DNA from: Nitrosomonadaceae bacterium
GTDB taxonomy: Bacteria > Pseudomonadota > Gammaproteobacteria > Burkholderiales > Nitrosomonadaceae
Direction: 5' to 3'
Assembly: GCA_030646695.1 (NCBI GenBank)
Contig: JAUSLF010000012.1
Coordinates: forward strand, 1-64,000
Length of the DNA stretch: 64,000 nt
Both the position numbers and the translations under genes were made by a program. A model generated the notes under the pieces. The model saw only the letters and a program-made list of their open reading frames with translations, ran no database searches and was not told the origin of the DNA. Each line of letters opens with the position of its first letter. The first letter of the stretch is position 1. This document shows positions 627 through 35,716 of the stretch, piece after piece.

Positions 627-3197
627 TTACAAGCTGCGCGCGACCTCGATGATCTCATAGACTTCCAGCTGATCGCCTACCTGAATATCATTAAAGTTTT
701 TCAACGACAGGCCACATTCAAAATTTGCCTTGACCTCCTTCACATCATCTTTGAAGCGCTTCAGTGAATCCAGTTCACCAGTATGAATCAGCTCGCCGTT
801 ACGGATCAAGCGCACTGATGAACCGCGCCTGATGACGCCATCGAGTACATAACAGCCGGCCACAGCGCCCACTTTGGAAATACGGAATACTTGACGAATT
901 TCCACCAGACCGATAATGCTTTCCTTGCGTTCTGGCGTCATCATGCCGGACAGGGCTGCTTTGATTTCGTCTACTGCCTCATAAATAATGCTGTAGTAAC
1001 GTACATCTACTCCAGTTGCACTGATCAGCTTGCGCGCAACCGTATCCGCGCGACTGTTGAAGCCGATCACCACGGCCTTGGAAGCCAGCGCCAGGTTGAT
1101 GTCAGATTCGGTGATCGCGCCCACGCCGCTGTGGATGATGTTGACTTTGACCTCGTCAGTGGAGAGCTTTTCCAATGCGTGGGTCAGCGCCTCGTAGGAG
1201 CCCTGCACGTCGGCCTTGATGATCAATGCAAGTATCTTGATCTCGCCCTTCTGCTCGAACAGGTTTTCCAGTTTGGTTGCCTGTTGTCTGGCAAGCTTCA
1301 CATCGCGGAACTTGCCCTGACGAAACAGTGCGATTTCACGCGCTTTACGCTCATCAGCCAAAGCCACTACTACTTCCCCTGCCACCGGCACTTCCGACAA
1401 ACCATGAATTTCCACCGGAATGGAAGGGCCTGCCTGCTCCACCGGTTTACCATTCTCGTTCAGCATTGCCCGTACCCGGCCGAACACCGCGCCTGCCAGC
1501 AGAACATCCCCTCGCTTCAAGGTTCCGGACTGCACCAGTATCGTTGCTACCGGGCCGCGCCCCTTGTCCAGACGTGATTCGATGACAATGCCTCTGGCGG
1601 GCGCTTCCTTTGCCGCCTTGAGTTCCAGCACTTCAGCCTGGAGCAGCACACTTTCCAGCAGTGCGTCAATGCCCTGGCCAGTCTTGGCTGAAACCTCGAT
1701 AAACATGGTGTCGCCACCCCAGTCCTCTGGCACCACACCTTGCGCCACCAGTTCCTGCCTGATGCGTTCTGGATTGGCCTCTGGTTTGTCAATTTTGTTG
1801 ACCGCCACCACGATCGGCACCTTGGCAGCCTTGGCATGATGTATCGCTTCTATTGTCTGGGGCATCACACCATCATCTGCTGCCACCACCAGCACGACCA
1901 GATCGGTGACCTTGGCGCCGCGGGCGCGCATAGCGGTAAACGCTTCATGACCGGGTGTATCGAGGAAAGTGATCATGCCCCGTTCGGTCTCAACGTGATA
2001 GGCCCCGATATGCTGCGTGATACCACCTGCTTCGCCGCTTGCTACACGTGTGCGGCGGATGTAATCCAGCAGGGAAGTTTTACCATGATCAACGTGCCCC
2101 ATTACCGTAACCACCGGCGCGCGCGGTTCCGTTTTATACTCTGTCGTGGGCAACTCGGTATCCGCCAGGAAAGCTTCGGGGCTATCCAGAGCCGCATATT
2201 TGGCAACGTGGCCCATTTCTTCCACCACGATCATGGCGGTTTCCTGATCCAGCATCTGATTGATAGTCACCATGTTGCCCATCTTCATCAGGGTCTTGAT
2301 AACTTCAGCGGCCTTGACCGACATTTTCTGCGCCAGCGCCCCAACAGAGATGGTCTCAGGCACCATCACCTCATGTACCACCGGCTCGGTTGGCGCTGAG
2401 AAACCATGAGCTCCTTGATCTTCACTGGAAGTTTTGCTGTGTTTATCTCTGCGCGTACGCCATCCTTTGCCACCGGACAAATCACCGCGCGTCTTGAGAC
2501 CGCGTTTTTCAGCACTCTCGTCTTTCCAGATGACTTGTTTGGTCTGTTTCTTTTTCTTCTCGGCTTTAGCCGCCTTGTCTTCCGGTTTAACCACCGGTTT
2601 ATGCAGGGTTCCTTCCGTTGGAGCAGGCGGGAGCACCCCCACCTCCGTTGGAACTGGAACTGGCGCAGCAACCGGCTGAGCTTCTCTGACCGCGGCTGCC
2701 GCGGGTTTCTTGCGTTCTTTCTTTTCCTTGATTTCCGCAACTTGGCGCGCGATCAGTGCAGCTTGTTTTTTTGCTTCTTCCTCACGCAACGACTGTTGTG
2801 CAGCATCCACCACCGATACAGGGGCTGGCGCAAGTAAAGGAGCAGCCACTGGCACAGCGGGCTCGACGGCCTCATCCTTACCTGCCACATTGTCAACCAG
2901 ATCACGCTTCGCAAATACGCGCTTCTTGCGTACTTCCACCTGGATGGTACGAGCTTTTCCAGTGCTATCCGATTTCTTGATTTCTGATGTCTGCCGGCGG
3001 GTCAGAGTAATCTTGCCCTTATCCTCCCTGGCACCATGAACCTTACGCAGATAATCCAGAAGCTGGGTTTTATCCTTTTCGGTCAGACCATCTTTGACCA
3101 TTTGCTTACTGACACCAGCAGCCTGGAGCTGCTCCAGCAATACCGCTGGCAACAGCCCCAGTTCACTGGCAAATTGTTCCACACTCATTTGCGCCAT
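627..3197 (-). CDS. infB: Translation initiation factor IF-2
   Basis: IF-2 is the GTPase that brings initiator fMet-tRNA to the 30S subunit and promotes 70S joining. The 856-residue protein has an IF2-type N-terminal helical domain at about residues 1-60. A long Ala/Pro/Lys-rich linker runs to about residue 280. The G domain then starts near residue 364, with GHVDHGKTS (G1), DTPGHEAFT (G3) and NKIDK (G4), followed by domains II-IV. The start at 3197 (MAQMSVEQF) could instead be the ATG three codons later. It lies 41 bases after nusA and is probably co-transcribed with it. Confidence 0.97.
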
Positions 3198-3238
3198 TAA
3201 TTAGTAGCCTTTAATAACCTATGCTCGATCCGCCAAGA

Positions 3239-4711
3239 TCAGGCAAACCACGGTGCGCGTGCTGCCATGATCAACTGCTTGGCTCGTTCGGCATCTATTC
3301 CAATCATTTCCACCAGGTCATCCACCGCCAAGTCGGCAAGATCTTCCTGGGTTTTCACACCCTTGGCCGCCAATTCGCGTGCAGTCTGACCGTCCATGCC
3401 TTCCAGTGCTAGCAGATCTTCCGTCATATGTTCTACTTTTTCCTCACTGACAATGGCCTCGGTCAGAAGCGCATTACGGGCTCGATTACGGAGCTCGTTG
3501 ACAGTTTGCTCGTCAAATGACTCGATTTCCAGCATTTCATTGAGCGGCACGTAAGCCACTTCTTCCAGACTGGTAAAACCTTCCTGCGCCAGGATATCCG
3601 CCACTTCCTCGTCCACATCAAGTTTGTCCATAAAGAGTTGGCGAGTGACCGAAGATTCCTCTTCATTTTTCGCCTGCGACTCTTCCATGCTCATAATGTT
3701 GAGTTCCCAGCCAGTCAATTCAGATGCAAGCCGCACATTCTGACCGCCACGGCCAATTGCTTGGGCAAGATTATCCTCATCCACCACGATGTCCATGCTG
3801 TGTTTTTCCTCGTCCACCATAATGCTGCTGATTTCGGCAGGTGCCAGCGCGTTAATGACAAAGGTGGCCGGATCATCCGACCACAAAATGATATCCACTC
3901 GTTCTCCGGCCAATTCACCGGTTACTGCCTGCACTCTGGAACCGCGCATACCGACACAAGTACCAATCGGATCAACGCGCTGATCATTAGACTTTACTGC
4001 AATCTTGGCGCGAGAACCGGGATCTCTCGCTGCAGCTTTAATCTCCAGCAAGCCTTCCTCAATCTCCGGCACTTCCAGCTCAAACAGCTTCATCAGAAAC
4101 TCTGGTGCAATCCGCGACAACACCAGCTGCGGCCCCCGGGCGGTACGGTCAATTTTGGACAAATAAGCACGCACACGGTCACCAACTCGCAGGTTCTCCT
4201 TGGGGATCGTCTGATCACGCGGCAACACGGCCTCGACTCTGCCAGATTCGATGATGGCATTGCCGCGTTCCATGCGCTTGATGGTACCGCTAACCATGTA
4301 TTCCTTGCGCTCGAGAAAATCGTTCAGAATCTGCTCACGCTCAGCATCGCGGATTTTTTGATATATGACCTGTTTGGCTGCCTGGGCACCGATACGGCCG
4401 ACTTCCACCGGTTCCAGCGGTTCCTCGACAAATTCTCCCAGCTGGATTCCAGCATCGCGTTGCAATGCCTCGCTCAGGGAAATTTGACGTGCGGACTCCT
4501 CGACGGCATCATCAGCTACTATCTGCCAGCGACGGAAAGACTGGTAGTCCCCCGTCTCACGATCGATTGATACGCGCACCTCGGCGTCTTCGTGAAAACG
4601 CTTTTTAGTAGCGGATGCCAGCGCCGATTCGAGTGCTGCAAAAACAATGTCTTTTTCAACATTCTTCTCGCGCGCCAGCGCATCCACCAACAGCAAAACT
4701 TCGCGACTCAT
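3239..4711 (-). CDS. nusA: Transcription termination/antitermination factor NusA
   Basis: NusA binds RNA polymerase and modulates pausing, intrinsic and Rho termination, and rRNA antitermination. The 490-residue product has an N-terminal polymerase-binding domain, S1, KH1 and KH2 domains (KH2 near the [11 protein letters not shown] segment) and two C-terminal acidic repeats, the arrangement found in proteobacteria. I place the start at 4711 because a strong GGAGG ribosome site sits about six bases upstream; an in-frame start at 4726 would lie upstream of that site. The gene is 27 bases after rimP. Confidence 0.97.
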
Positions 4712-4738
4712 GCTACCTCCGGCCAAATTCTCAGATGG

Positions 4739-5167
4739 CTACAATTTTGGAACCAAACGGGCTTTTTCAAGGTTACTCAGCTCAAGATCAAGTATTTTTC
4801 CATCCACTTCCAGTTTTAACACCTCGTCGCTCACTCCACGCAAAATACCGACGAAATTTCTCTGGCCCTGTAACGCCACACGTAACTTCAGTTTAGCCAA
4901 TTCTCCCGTAAAACGAGCAAAATCGGACATCTTCTTCAACGGCCTATCCATCCCGGGCGAAGATATTTCCAACCGATCATAGTCAATATTTTCGACCGCA
5001 AGCAATCGGCCCAGATGGTCGCTGACCGCGGCACAGTCCTCCACAGTGATACCGTTGGGCTTGTCAATAAACACCCGCAACAGCTTACCGCGTGGCGACC
5101 GTTCCACTTCAACCAGCTCATAACCCATCCCGGACAGGGTCAATTCCAGTAATTCGTGTAGCTCCAT
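4739..5167 (-). CDS. rimP: Ribosome maturation factor RimP
   Basis: RimP assists late 30S assembly. The 142-residue product starts [22 protein letters not shown] and has the family segment [10 protein letters not shown]. The open frame extends to 5206, but those 13 extra codons lie inside a hairpin and lack family similarity, so I use the ATG at 5167. It is the first gene of the rimP-nusA-infB-rbfA operon and is preceded directly by a terminator-like hairpin. Confidence 0.95.
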
Positions 5168-5181
5168 AGCCTCGCTACAAA

Positions 5182-5206
5182 CAAAAAATGGGCCGAACAA
5201 GCCCAT
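5182..5206 (-). terminator. Terminator-like hairpin in the rimP leader
   Basis: On the minus strand, the perfect 6-bp stem ATGGGC/GCCCAT closes a 7-base loop and is followed at once by six T's and then the rimP ribosome-binding region. It has the form of an intrinsic terminator and lies 15 bases before the rimP start. Transcription of the operon must pass through it, so it could work as an attenuator. In Escherichia coli the nusA operon has leader terminators and is autoregulated by NusA; the same use here is inference. Confidence 0.6.
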
Positions 5207-5471
5207 AAAAATTACGTGTGTATTTTAGCAAATATTTATAATTAATGAAATAGATACTTCGCAAAGAAGCGTTGGCTGGCAACGATATTTTTCCTCTGGC
5301 CGGATCCTGTCATGCCGATAAAATCGCAAGTAAAACCGGGATTAATTGCCGCCTGCTTGCTATCAGCATGTACCATGGAGGAGATGTGAGAGCGACCGTA
5401 TTCAGTTGATGCGGATGATACAATTCTTCCAATTATAAGCCTTAGCCAAAGAAAAACACTGGAGAAGCGTC

Positions 5472-7439
5472 ATGCCCGCAATTAAATCCATTTTACATGA
5501 GACCCGTATTTTCCCTCCTGACGCGGCATTTGTGAAACAGGCCAACCTGGCCGACATGGCTGCCTACCATGCATTATGTGCCGAGGCTGCAGGGGATTAT
5601 CAGGGCTTCTGGGGTGAATTGGCACGGGAACACATTCTATGGCACAAGGCCTTCACCCGAGTGCTGGACGAAAGTAATCATCCATTCTTCAAGTGGTTCG
5701 ACGATGGCGAGCTGAATATTTCCTTCAACTGTCTTGACCGGCATCTCGCCACTCAGCCGGATAAAGTCGCCATCATTTTCGAGACAGATGACGGCAAGGT
5801 CACCCGATCCACTTACCGCGATCTTCACCGCCGCGTATGCCAGTTTGCCAATGGCCTCAAATCGCTCAACATCGGTAAAGGCGATCGCGTCATCATCTAT
5901 ATGCCGATGAGCATTGAGGCGGTTGTAGCAATGCAGGCTTGCGCCCGCATCGGCGCAATCCATTCAGTGGTGTTTGGCGGTTTCTCCGCCAAAAGCCTGC
6001 ACGAACGAATTATCGATGCCGGCGCAGTAGCCGTTATTTCTGCCGACGAACAAATCCGTGGCGGCAGGGCCATCCCCCTGAAACCCGCAGTAGACGAGGC
6101 ACTTGCCATGGGTGGCACCAATTCGGTGAAATCCGTGGTGATTTACCAACGCTCCGGCAAAGATGTGCAATGGCATGCTCCGCGTGATGTCTGGTGGCAC
6201 GATCTCATCAAGGACAGGGATGATACCTGCGAGCCGGAATGGGTCAATGCCGAGCATCCGCTGTTTACTCTCTACACCTCCGGCTCCACCGGCAAGCCCA
6301 AGGGGGTGCAGCATTCTTCCGCTGGCTACCTGCTTGGTACGATGATAAGCATGAAATGGATTTTCGATTACAAACCTGCCGATATCTTCTGGTGTACGGC
6401 CGACGTGGGCTGGGTTACCGGCCACAGCTATGTCGCCTACGGCCCTCTGGCAATCGGCGCCACCCAGATTATATTCGAGGGTGTTCCCACTTATCCCGAT
6501 GCGGGTCGTTTCTGGAAAATTATCCAGGACCACAAAGTGACCACTTTCTACACCGCTCCCACCGCAATCCGTTCACTTATCAAATCCGGCCCGGATTTGC
6601 CCGGACAATATGATCTGTCCTCATTGCGCCTGCTGGGTTCGGTAGGTGAGCCCATCAACCCGGAAGCCTGGATGTGGTATTACACCATCGTGGGCCAGTC
6701 CCGTTGTCCCATCGTGGATACCTGGTGGCAAACCGAAACTGGCTCGCACATGCTTGCTCCCATGCCCGGCGCAGTGCCGCTCAAACCCGGCTCCTGCGCT
6801 TTCCCGTTACCCGGCATCATGGCAGCCATCGTGGATGAAACCGGCCATGAAGTGGAAAATGGCAAGGGTGGATTCCTGGTCATCAAGCGCCCATTTCCAT
6901 CACTGGCACGCACCCTGTGGGGCGATCCGGAGCGTTTCCGGAAAACCTATTTCCCGCAAGATCTGGGTGGAAAATATTATCTGGCTGGCGATTCTGCCAA
7001 CCGTGATCTGGACGGCTATTTCTGGATCATGGGGCGTATCGACGATGTACTGAATGTTTCCGGTCATCGCTTGGGCACCATGGAAATTGAATCGGCACTG
7101 GTGGCCAACCCCTTGGTAGCGGAAGCCGCAGTGGTGGGTAAGCCTCATGATATCAAGGGTGAAGCGGTAATTGCATTTGTGGTGCTGAAAGGCATGCGCC
7201 CCCAAGGTGAGGATGCGCACAATATCTCCGTGGCGTTGCGCGACTGGGTAGCTAAAGAAATCGGTCCGATTGCCAAACCTGACGAGATCCGCTTCGGCGA
7301 TAACCTGCCCAAAACCCGCTCCGGCAAAATCATGCGCCGCTTGCTGCGCGCCATTGCCAGAGGAGAGGAAATCACCCAGGATGTTTCTACCCTGGAGAAC
7401 CCGGCAATACTCGAACAGTTGCAGCAGCCGATAACATAA
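5472..7439 (+). CDS. acs: Acetyl-CoA synthetase, AMP-forming
   Basis: Acs activates acetate with ATP and CoA through an acetyl-adenylate. The 655-residue protein has the ANL-family order of motifs: the P-loop [11 protein letters not shown], the adenylate-binding [27 protein letters not shown], and the C-terminal [12 protein letters not shown]. The lysine in that last motif is the catalytic residue controlled by acetylation in this family. The tryptophan pair in the fourth motif is typical of acetyl rather than propionyl specificity. GGAG lies about eight bases before the ATG. A hydrolase gene follows after 21 bases. Confidence 0.95.
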
Positions 7440-7460
7440 TCCAGCACAAGCAAGGCATTC

Positions 7461-8420
7461 ATGGCCCTACCCCGCATTACTGACTACGGCCACGGCATCA
7501 GCACTATCGATGCGCAATACCACCGTCCAGGACTCGTTGCGATCCACCTGCTCGTCGAAGGTGATACTGCCGCGCTGGTGGACACCGGAACGGTATTTTC
7601 CGTTCCCGGCGTCATCGAAACATTGCAGCAAAAAAATCTCGCGCCTGAGAATGTAGCCTATGTGTTTCTCACTCACATCCATCTCGACCATGCCGGTGGC
7701 GCGAGCGAATTCATGCGTTGCCTGCCCAATGCGAAACTGGTGGTACATCCGCGTGGTGCACGGCATATGGCCGATCCCTCCAGGCTCATCGCGGGTGCCA
7801 AGGCGGTTTATGGCGCAGCGGAATTCAGCCGCATGTACGGCGAGATCCGCCCAATTGACGCAGACCGCATCATTGAAGCGCCGGATGGATTTCGCATCGA
7901 TCTTAACGGCAGGCCCATGCTGTTTCTCGATACGCCGGGCCATGCACGCCATCACTATTGCATCTTCGACCAGCAGAGCCGCTCATTCTTCACCGGCGAC
8001 ACATTCGGCGTCTCTTACCGTGAATTCGACGTGAATGGAATGGAATTCGTGTTTCCGACCACTACGCCAGTGCAGTTCGATCCGGTTGCAGCACATAGCT
8101 CTCTGGACCGGCTGATGAGTTACGATCCGGATCATGCCTTCCTCACCCATTATGGCCGCATCAGCCATTTGCCGCGCCATGCCGGTGAGATGCACGATTT
8201 GATCGATGCTCATGTGGCAATCGCCAGAAAGATGGACAATCATATTTCCGGCAGGCATGCAGCACTAGTGGAAGAACTTAGCACACTGCTGTTACAGCGA
8301 TTGACAGCACACGGCTGCAAACTACCACGGGAACAAATTCATGAACTGCTGCGCATGGACATCGACCTCAATGCCCAAGGCCTGGAAAGCTGGCTGGATC
8401 AGCCAGTGGCAAGCGGTTGA
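7461..8420 (+). CDS. Metallo-beta-lactamase-fold hydrolase
   Basis: This is a 319-residue MBL-fold protein with the metal-binding motif THIHLDHAGG near residue 71, downstream histidines in DTPGHARHHYC, and an aspartate in FFTGDTFG. These are the expected ligands of a two-metal hydrolase. No signal peptide is visible, so it is probably cytoplasmic. It follows acs by 21 bases on the same strand and is likely co-transcribed. A thioester or acyl substrate would fit that context, but the substrate is unknown. Confidence 0.85.
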   Translation: MALPRITDYGHGISTIDAQYHRPGLVAIHLLVEGDTAALVDTGTVFSVPGVIETLQQKNLAPENVAYVFLTHIHLDHAGGASEFMRCLPNAKLVVHPRGARHMADPSRLIAGAKAVYGAAEFSRMYGEIRPIDADRIIEAPDGFRIDLNGRPMLFLDTPGHARHHYCIFDQQSRSFFTGDTFGVSYREFDVNGMEFVFPTTTPVQFDPVAAHSSLDRLMSYDPDHAFLTHYGRISHLPRHAGEMHDLIDAHVAIARKMDNHISGRHAALVEELSTLLLQRLTAHGCKLPREQIHELLRMDIDLNAQGLESWLDQPVASG

Positions 8421-33870: not shown

Positions 33871-34464
33871 CTAACTGGCAGCGATCGGCTGGAATGCATC
33901 CATCGGGATGGGCTGGTATTTGACTGCCAGAATTTCCAGTTCCTCAACCCCGCCCGGTGCATGCAGTGTTACCGTATCATCCTGCCGCGCCTTGGTCAGT
34001 ACCCGTGCCATCGGTGAAATCCAGCTAATGTAGCCGCGGGCAGTATTGACTTCATCGACCCCGACGATGGCTACTGTTTTTTCTTCACCTACCAGATTGG
34101 AATAGGTGACTGTGGCACCAAAGAAAATCTGTGTCTCATCTTCTCTCGGGTTGGCAGGATCCACTACTTCGGCCATATCCAGCCGTTTGGTGAGGAAACG
34201 GATGCGTCGATCGATTTCACGTAAACGCTTTTTGCCGTAAATATAGTCGCCATTTTCCGAGCGATCGCCATTACCCGCAGCCCACGACACTGTGGCAGTC
34301 ACATGTGGACGCTCTTTATTCATCAGCCATAAGAACTCGTCCATCAGTCGTGCATAACCGCCCGGAGTGATATAGTTTTTGCCAGTGGAAGGCAGAAGAT
34401 CGACGCCTGCATCTTCTTCAGGATCGTCGGCCCCTTCAGTTTCTTTTATAAATGCTTTGCTCAT
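33871..34464 (-). CDS. greB: Transcript cleavage factor GreB
   Basis: Gre factors enter the polymerase secondary channel and trigger cleavage of backtracked RNA. The 197-residue product has the coiled-coil tip with acidic residues (GDRSENGDYIYGKKRLREIDRRIRFL) and the C-terminal FKBP-like domain (FGATVTYSNLVGEEKTVAIVG, SWISPMARVL). The GDYIYGKKRLREIDRR pattern is GreB rather than GreA. It is longer than usual because of an acidic N-terminal extension of about 30 residues. Confidence 0.92.
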   Translation of the reverse strand: MSKAFIKETEGADDPEEDAGVDLLPSTGKNYITPGGYARLMDEFLWLMNKERPHVTATVSWAAGNGDRSENGDYIYGKKRLREIDRRIRFLTKRLDMAEVVDPANPREDETQIFFGATVTYSNLVGEEKTVAIVGVDEVNTARGYISWISPMARVLTKARQDDTVTLHAPGGVEELEILAVKYQPIPMDAFQPIAAS

Positions 34465-34679
34465 AGGTTGAATACGGTTAAGGCAGCCTCTCGATGAACC
34501 TCCGGCGGGCTGCGGTAGACGCGGGTTAGGTGCGTTGTACTTCCCAGGCAGCGCGTAGACTAGGCTATGGCCTTTGATCCGCGCCCGGTGCTTGCTCTAC
34601 TGTTACCAGTAACGCAAGCCAGAAAGGACTCATTCAACTACTGCTTAATCAAAACTTACCATAGCATGATATCCCACGC

Positions 34680-35102
34680 ATGACCACTTCCTTGCCGCAA
34701 GAGAAATCGTGGCAATCGACTGTCGGCATACCGGCAGCCACTCACCCCGAGCCGTTCTGGCGCTCGCTGTTTTATTTCAATGTGTATCGCCTGCTGATAG
34801 CAAGCGGGATCGTGGTAATCACATGGCTATCTCCCGAATCCAGTTTCGGTTCCTATAACCCCCAATTGTTTCTGTATACAGCGCTAGCCTATATCGTGTT
34901 TGGTGGAATATCGCTGCTGCTGACCCGTATGCAGCGGCTATATTTCGATCGGCAGCTTGCAAAACTGGAAAAGGAGTCCATCATTGAAGTCTTGAAAAAG
35001 ACCCAATATAACTGCACTGCCGCTGTGAGATTGCTGGGGATCACAGTTAGTTCCATGCGCTACCGCATGGAACGACTAGGACTGAATGATGATGATGGTT
35101 AA
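34680..35102 (+). CDS. PilS N-terminus fused to the PilR C-terminal helix-turn-helix (deletion remnant)
   Basis: Residues 1-92 resemble the membrane sensor domain of the type IV pilus kinase PilS: EPFWRSLFYFNVYRLLIASGIVV, a second helix near YTALAYIVFGGISLLL, and the basic loop LTRMQR. From about residue 96 it becomes the C-terminal Fis-type domain of its response regulator PilR (KLEKESIIEVLKKTQYNCTAAVRLLGI, RYRMERLGL). The kinase, receiver and AAA+ domains between them are missing. The 140-residue chimera is in frame, so a membrane-tethered DNA-binding protein could be made. ampD follows, as in intact pilSR loci. Confidence 0.78.
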   Translation: MTTSLPQEKSWQSTVGIPAATHPEPFWRSLFYFNVYRLLIASGIVVITWLSPESSFGSYNPQLFLYTALAYIVFGGISLLLTRMQRLYFDRQLAKLEKESIIEVLKKTQYNCTAAVRLLGITVSSMRYRMERLGLNDDDG

Positions 35103-35119: not shown

Positions 35120-35716
35120 ATGGGAATGCAGGTCGGACGAATGCAGATTGACGCAAACGGCTGTCTGGACGGCGTGCGTCTCATCCCCTCGCACAATTGT
35201 GACGAGCGTCCGGCCGGGTACGCCATAAACTTGCTGGTAATCCACAGCATCAGTCTGCCGCCGGATGAATTCGGCGGCGATGGAGTGATCGAACTGTTTA
35301 CCAACCGGCTCGATCTGGCAGCACATCCTTATTACCAGACTCTACGCGACCTCAAGGTTTCTGCGCATTTTTTCATCCGCCGGGACGGCGAGACCATCCA
35401 GTTCGTCGCCTGTGGCAAGCGCGCCTGGCATGCGGGAACCTCCTGCTGGCAGGGTAAGACCCATTGCAATGATTTCTCCATCGGAGTGGAACTTGAGGGC
35501 AGCGATACCCGGCCTTTTACTGATGCTCAATATACGGCGCTGATCGCGCTGAGCCGGGTGCTGCAAGAAGCTTATCCCATTGCGGACATTGTCGGGCATT
35601 CCGATATTGCCGCAGGACGCAAGACTGATCCTGGCCCGTATTTTGACTGGAAGCGTTATCGTTCTGCGTTGCTGGCTGCGAGGCAACATGACGCCGCTTC
35701 CCCTGGCAAGGAATAG
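35120..35716 (+). CDS. ampD: 1,6-anhydro-N-acetylmuramyl-L-alanine amidase AmpD
   Basis: AmpD is a cytoplasmic zinc amidase that removes the peptide from anhydromuropeptides during cell-wall recycling. The 198-residue product has no signal peptide. It has the zinc ligands in LVIHSISLPP and VGHSDIAAGRKTDPGP, plus the segments FGGDGVIELFTNRLD, SAHFFIRRDGETIQFV and CNDFSIGVELEG. It starts 17 bases after the PilS/PilR remnant; ATGs at 35126 and 35141 are alternatives. Confidence 0.93.
   Translation: MGMQVGRMQIDANGCLDGVRLIPSHNCDERPAGYAINLLVIHSISLPPDEFGGDGVIELFTNRLDLAAHPYYQTLRDLKVSAHFFIRRDGETIQFVACGKRAWHAGTSCWQGKTHCNDFSIGVELEGSDTRPFTDAQYTALIALSRVLQEAYPIADIVGHSDIAAGRKTDPGPYFDWKRYRSALLAARQHDAASPGKE

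Follow-up and report, generated by a model that had tools for sequence, protein, structure and literature searches.

A reading frame joining the start of pilS to the end of pilR in a Nitrosomonadaceae bacterium is very probably the decaying scar of one deletion

RESULTS

A short reading frame combines the two ends of pilSR

The window analyzed here, a stretch of 64,000 nucleotides from an ammonia-oxidizing Nitrosomonadaceae bacterium, carries a 140-amino-acid open reading frame (ORF; positions 34680-35102, + strand) made up of PilS residues 1 to 94 and the final ~45 residues of PilR. This fusion ORF is very probably the decaying scar of a single pilSR deletion. Two Pfam profiles matched it above their curated cutoffs, namely, 6TM_PilS over ORF residues 25 to 93 (profile positions 7 to 75 of 189, E = 9e-7) and the Fis-type helix-turn-helix (HTH) profile HTH_8 over residues 93 to 132 (E = 3e-9). 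Residues 1 to 95 shared 95% identity with PilS of the nearest congener, G004, and residues 92 to 140 shared 82% identity with the C terminus of PilR from the same genome; the two halves of the ORF thereby match two separate places within one G004 locus. The profile matches and the G004 identities agree with a preliminary description of this DNA, which had recognized the membrane part of PilS and the HTH of PilR in one frame. A chance likeness of the N terminus to PilS was ruled out by the 95% identity over 95 residues to the congener. The length of 92 residues given earlier for the PilS part needs correction, since its origin in PilS stands but the break lies at residue 95, in a hybrid codon, and not at residue 92.

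Only the first two of the six predicted PilS membrane helices are kept (approximately residues 30 to 48 and 63 to 81, by hydropathy) and the other four are gone, so that, consistent with the partial profile match, the ORF lacks a six-helix PilS membrane domain. Intact PilS of G004 (539 amino acids) contains 6TM, HisKA, and HATPase domains, and intact PilR (470 amino acids) contains the receiver, Sigma54_activat (AAA+), lid, and HTH_8 domains. Pfam searches found neither HisKA and HATPase nor the receiver and sigma-54 AAA+ domains in the fusion ORF. A single-sequence structure model, of low confidence (pLDDT 67), predicted helices at residues 26 to 50, 61 to 107, 112 to 119, and 123 to 133. Judging from hydropathy, the product, if made, would have two membrane helices, with the HTH on the cytoplasmic side. 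The frame is open and begins with the native ATG start codon; in the upstream region retained from pilS, a consensus scan found no sigma-70-like site.

Table 1. Features of the former pilSR locus in the window
Feature	Position	Strand	Basis or remark
greB-like gene	33871..34464	-	Same place as in congeners
Former pilS upstream region	34465..34679	+	Alignable to G004, still in place
pilS remnant (codons 1-94 and first base of codon 95)	34680..34962	+	G004 identity, 6TM_PilS, hydropathy
Deletion junction	34962..34963	+	2,619 bp (873 codons) of G004 missing between these bases
pilR remnant (C-terminal Fis-type HTH, residues 96-140)	34963..35102	+	HTH_8, E = 3e-9
ampD (N-acetylmuramoyl-L-alanine amidase family, by sequence and neighborhood)	35120..35716	+	After pilR in congeners

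The junction marks a single in-frame deletion

Gene order in G004 is greB-pilS-pilR-ampD. Alignment of the two DNA sequences showed 93% identity up to position 34962 and 92% from position 34963 on, with a single, clean, in-frame deletion between these bases. The preliminary description had estimated that the absent kinase, receiver, and AAA+ parts would take roughly 2.5 kb; their absence was borne out, with exactly 2,619 bp missing relative to G004. It had also noted that the join keeps the frame, and it does so because the lost segment comprises 873 whole codons. By chance, one deletion in three keeps the frame.

The junction reads CAGCTTGCAAAACTGG in the window, where the hybrid codon (34962-34964) encodes Lys95. 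With the break marked by a slash, the pilS side in G004 reads TTTCGATCGGCAGCTTGCAA/TCC (in a longer stretch, ...CAGCTTGCAA/TCC) and the pilR side reads GACC/AACTGGAAAAGG (also written GACC/AACTGG). Comparison of the two sides revealed no microhomology at 34962/34963, with zero shared bases at the joint, and repeat-mediated recombination was thus ruled out as the route of deletion. The junction sits within a 110-kb contig, and the evidence from the host comes from one metagenome assembly (81 contigs, 89% complete).

Close relatives retain the intact pair

Intact, collinear pilSR was found at the same place in five congeners (G001, G003, G004, G007, and G008), which strongly supports the deletion scar proposed earlier. 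In all five, ampD follows pilSR as it follows the fusion ORF here, in agreement with the preliminary description. The three other congeners (G002, G005, and G006) gave no pilSR match and likewise no PilP and no PilB-profile match. Among the matches listed, no second short PilS-PilR fusion was present in 60 relatives or in 300 sampled genomes of the order. The preliminary description had named two observations that would overturn its reading; among these matches we found no homologue of the full-length fusion beside an intact pilSR pair, and the first half of the ORF is plainly similar to PilS. In G126, a genome of the same order, the PilR HTH lies in a 144-codon frame beside a full-length PilS frame (C1:986381-986518, 989081-989341), which suggests that pilR is frameshifted or truncated there.

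The host assembly, 89% complete, yielded no further pilS or pilR. A gene pair on C22 was considered as a second pilSR and rejected; it is RegB/RegA-like and explains the other 6TM_PilS match and one HTH_8 match.

The remnant has lost conserved residues

With the other congeners as outgroups, seven amino acid replacements in the remnant were assigned to the host lineage (G000) and none to the G004 lineage (sign test, P = 0.016). The HTH part changed faster per codon than five neighboring genes did (4/41 versus 34/1639; Fisher test, P = 0.012), and the contrast in lineage bias between the fusion and the neighboring genes was by itself not significant (P = 0.086). These counts are small, amounting to a handful of substitutions that fall mostly in the HTH. 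In the pilS part, dN/dS against G004 was 0.21, no higher than between intact congeners, and this pairwise comparison therefore gave no clear excess of amino acid changes for that part on its own.

The pilR remnant carries the lineage-specific replacements K109Q, R112C, A116V, and R124S. Across 22 other distinct PilR HTH sequences of the same order, 15 columns do not vary, and three of the replacements (R112C, A116V, and R124S) each alter one of them; R124S lies in the recognition-helix region. The HTH is thus recognized by HTH_8 yet no longer has all the residues conserved in the Fis-type HTH of PilR. Such changes at invariant residues are stronger evidence of decay than the substitution counts. 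When random substitution was simulated, 8 changes left the ORF open in 74% of the trials and 12 changes in 65%; since random substitution often leaves the frame open, its openness is no evidence of function.

Type IV pilus genes persist, and the pilA promoter has drifted

The preliminary description had advised looking for other pil genes, and these proved to be present: pilM, -N, -O, -P, and -Q occur in a row in the host assembly, together with pilT/U-like genes on C10, two pilB-like genes, at least two pilins, and rpoN. The pilus structural genes look intact. Loss of pilSR with retention of the pilus machine was seen only in the host among the nine genomes of the genus.

The sigma-54 element of host pilA (C41), ~71 bases before the start codon, reads TGGTAC-N5-CTGCT, versus TGGCAC-N5-CTGCT in five congeners, the difference lying in the -24 part. 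There is also a short duplication upstream of the gene, and the GG and GC dinucleotides of the -24/-12 element are still there. A sigma-70 promoter gained in place of the sigma-54 promoter was rejected, as no consensus site was found at pilA in either the host or G004. In Pseudomonas aeruginosa, PilR activates pilA together with sigma-54, and pilR mutants are without PilA (PMC6058289); by this precedent, pilin expression in the host would be low or would follow another route.

Several further observations concern these genes. Host pilA (C41, 4062-4487), located beside a pilB-like gene, diverges strongly past the N terminus from the congener pilins at the same place, and its upstream region aligns with theirs. 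The second pilB-like gene of the host (805 amino acids; C6:46000-57000, 2004-7687) has MBL-fold, PP2C, FHA, and HD-GYP-type neighbors, and in this length range each congener shows a single pilB-like gene. A 147-amino-acid pilin near the C6 gene has sigma-54-like sites at -92 and -218, and the closest congener pilins are only ~40% identical to it. In G002, one of the congeners without pilSR, the sigma-54 DNA-binding domain is split into two frames of 105 and 78 codons (C4:69539-70005), possibly a pseudogene or a sequencing error.

DISCUSSION

We propose that one illegitimate deletion took PilS from the third membrane helix on, with its HisKA and HATPase domains, and all of PilR but the last ~45 residues, with the receiver and AAA+ domains, and would have left a 140-codon in-frame ORF that the former upstream region of pilS still precedes. 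PilS and PilR depend for their work on the kinase, receiver, and AAA+ domains. Because all three are gone, the fusion product would be unable to take phosphate or to open sigma-54 promoters, and PilSR control of the pilin gene would have lapsed, as in pathogenic Neisseria. The ORF would then be a decaying pseudogene that has stayed open through the few substitutions since the deletion.

Some observations speak against decay, namely, the intact frame with its native ATG and preserved upstream region, the unremarkable dN/dS of the pilS part together with a relaxation signal that amounts to few changes, and the GG and GC retained at pilA. The first of these would also fit a live, repurposed one-component regulator, in which two helices anchor the HTH at the inner membrane face and the HTH binds former PilR sites; pilin transcription may then be blocked or modulated without ATPase activity. 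The two hydrophobic helices, as well as the low-confidence model with a topology that would place the HTH in the cytoplasm, are in keeping with such a protein, and membrane-anchored transcription regulators are common, with Rsp of Neisseria listed among them (PMC10269533). However, HTH residues invariant in the other PilR sequences are replaced, Arg124 included, neither ATPase, receiver, nor complete sensor is left, and no second fusion appeared among the matches listed for the 300 genomes of the order. We therefore consider a live regulator quite unlikely. It is just as improbable, in our view, that the fusion is expressed and regulates pilin while tethered to the membrane, its DNA specificity altered and R124S and R112C adaptive, in an independent parallel to Rsp. 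The earlier suggestion of a new kind of membrane-tethered regulator also found no support, given the lost invariant residues, the drifted sigma-54 element of pilA, and the prior publication of Rsp.

Still less probable is an assembly artefact in which pilS and pilR reads were misjoined and the real genome has an intact pair. The fragmented, incomplete metagenome assembly, known here without its reads, would allow for it, but the junction lies inside the 110-kb contig, the joint offers no sequence common to pilS and pilR by which an assembler might be misled, and no leftover pilS or pilR fragments occur elsewhere in the assembly. Moreover, the changes in the HTH and the drift of the pilA promoter are expected after loss of the pair and not with an intact one. 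A different question is what favored the deletion. Compatible with a decaying scar, loss of PilSR may have been selected for lowering pilin expression, for example under pilus-targeting phages: in P. aeruginosa, mutations in pilR and pilS, as well as one deletion of 7,559 bases that spans pilS-pilY1, arose under selection by phage PO4 (PMC13170266), and the lack of PilA in pilR mutants (PMC6058289) points the same way. Nothing in the host genome bears on the cause, however, the pilus structural genes look intact, and drift would yield the same picture, so that we regard selection as a doubtful, if somewhat less remote, proposition.

A fusion of this type has been described in Neisseria gonorrhoeae, where nps and npa, the homologues of pilS and pilR, are fused into rsp at the locus they formerly occupied; commensal Neisseria species keep the pair, N. 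meningitidis has truncated versions, and in pathogenic Neisseria pilE is transcribed from an RpoD promoter (PMC6528607). Reports on its function conflict, since Rsp is a transmembrane regulator repressing pilin expression according to one (PMC10269533) and apparently has no role in pilE transcription according to the other (PMC6528607). Both cite Carrick, Fyfe and Davies (2000, FEMS Microbiol Lett 186:197), which we take as quoted by them. Like Rsp, the fusion ORF has a PilS-type membrane N terminus in frame with a PilR-type DNA-binding C terminus at the old two-component locus, and in both cases the bacterium keeps type IV pili and related species keep the intact pair. The two differ in family and in neighboring genes (parC/rsmJ in Neisseria versus greB/ampD here); because of these differences, the fusion presumably arose independently of Rsp, which is known here by description and not by sequence. 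The fusion type is not new, and the host locus provides a second example of it.

PilS-PilR of Nitrosomonadaceae and Pseudomonas, the source of both ORF ends, occupies the same genomic place, whereas the fusion lacks kinase, receiver, and AAA+ domains, four of six membrane helices, and three invariant HTH residues. With ToxR, CadC, TcpP, and others it shares a predicted membrane anchor and an HTH on one polypeptide; unlike them, it has no evident sensory domain, its HTH is a Fis-type one left from an NtrC-family activator, and it is known from sequence alone.

The locus shows clearly how a two-component system collapsed in a single step, leaving a membrane-HTH remnant; Neisseria rsp is apparently a parallel. 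Transmembrane regulators have been proposed to derive possibly from two-component systems, with Rsp as a hint (PMC10269533), and the present fusion would add a second example, accompanied by an intact close relative that reveals what was lost. It suggests that in-frame fusions of such a type can arise by ordinary deletion and need not have been kept for function. Should the fusion nevertheless prove to be a regulator, it would mean that one deletion is enough to turn a two-component pair into a membrane-bound one-component regulator.
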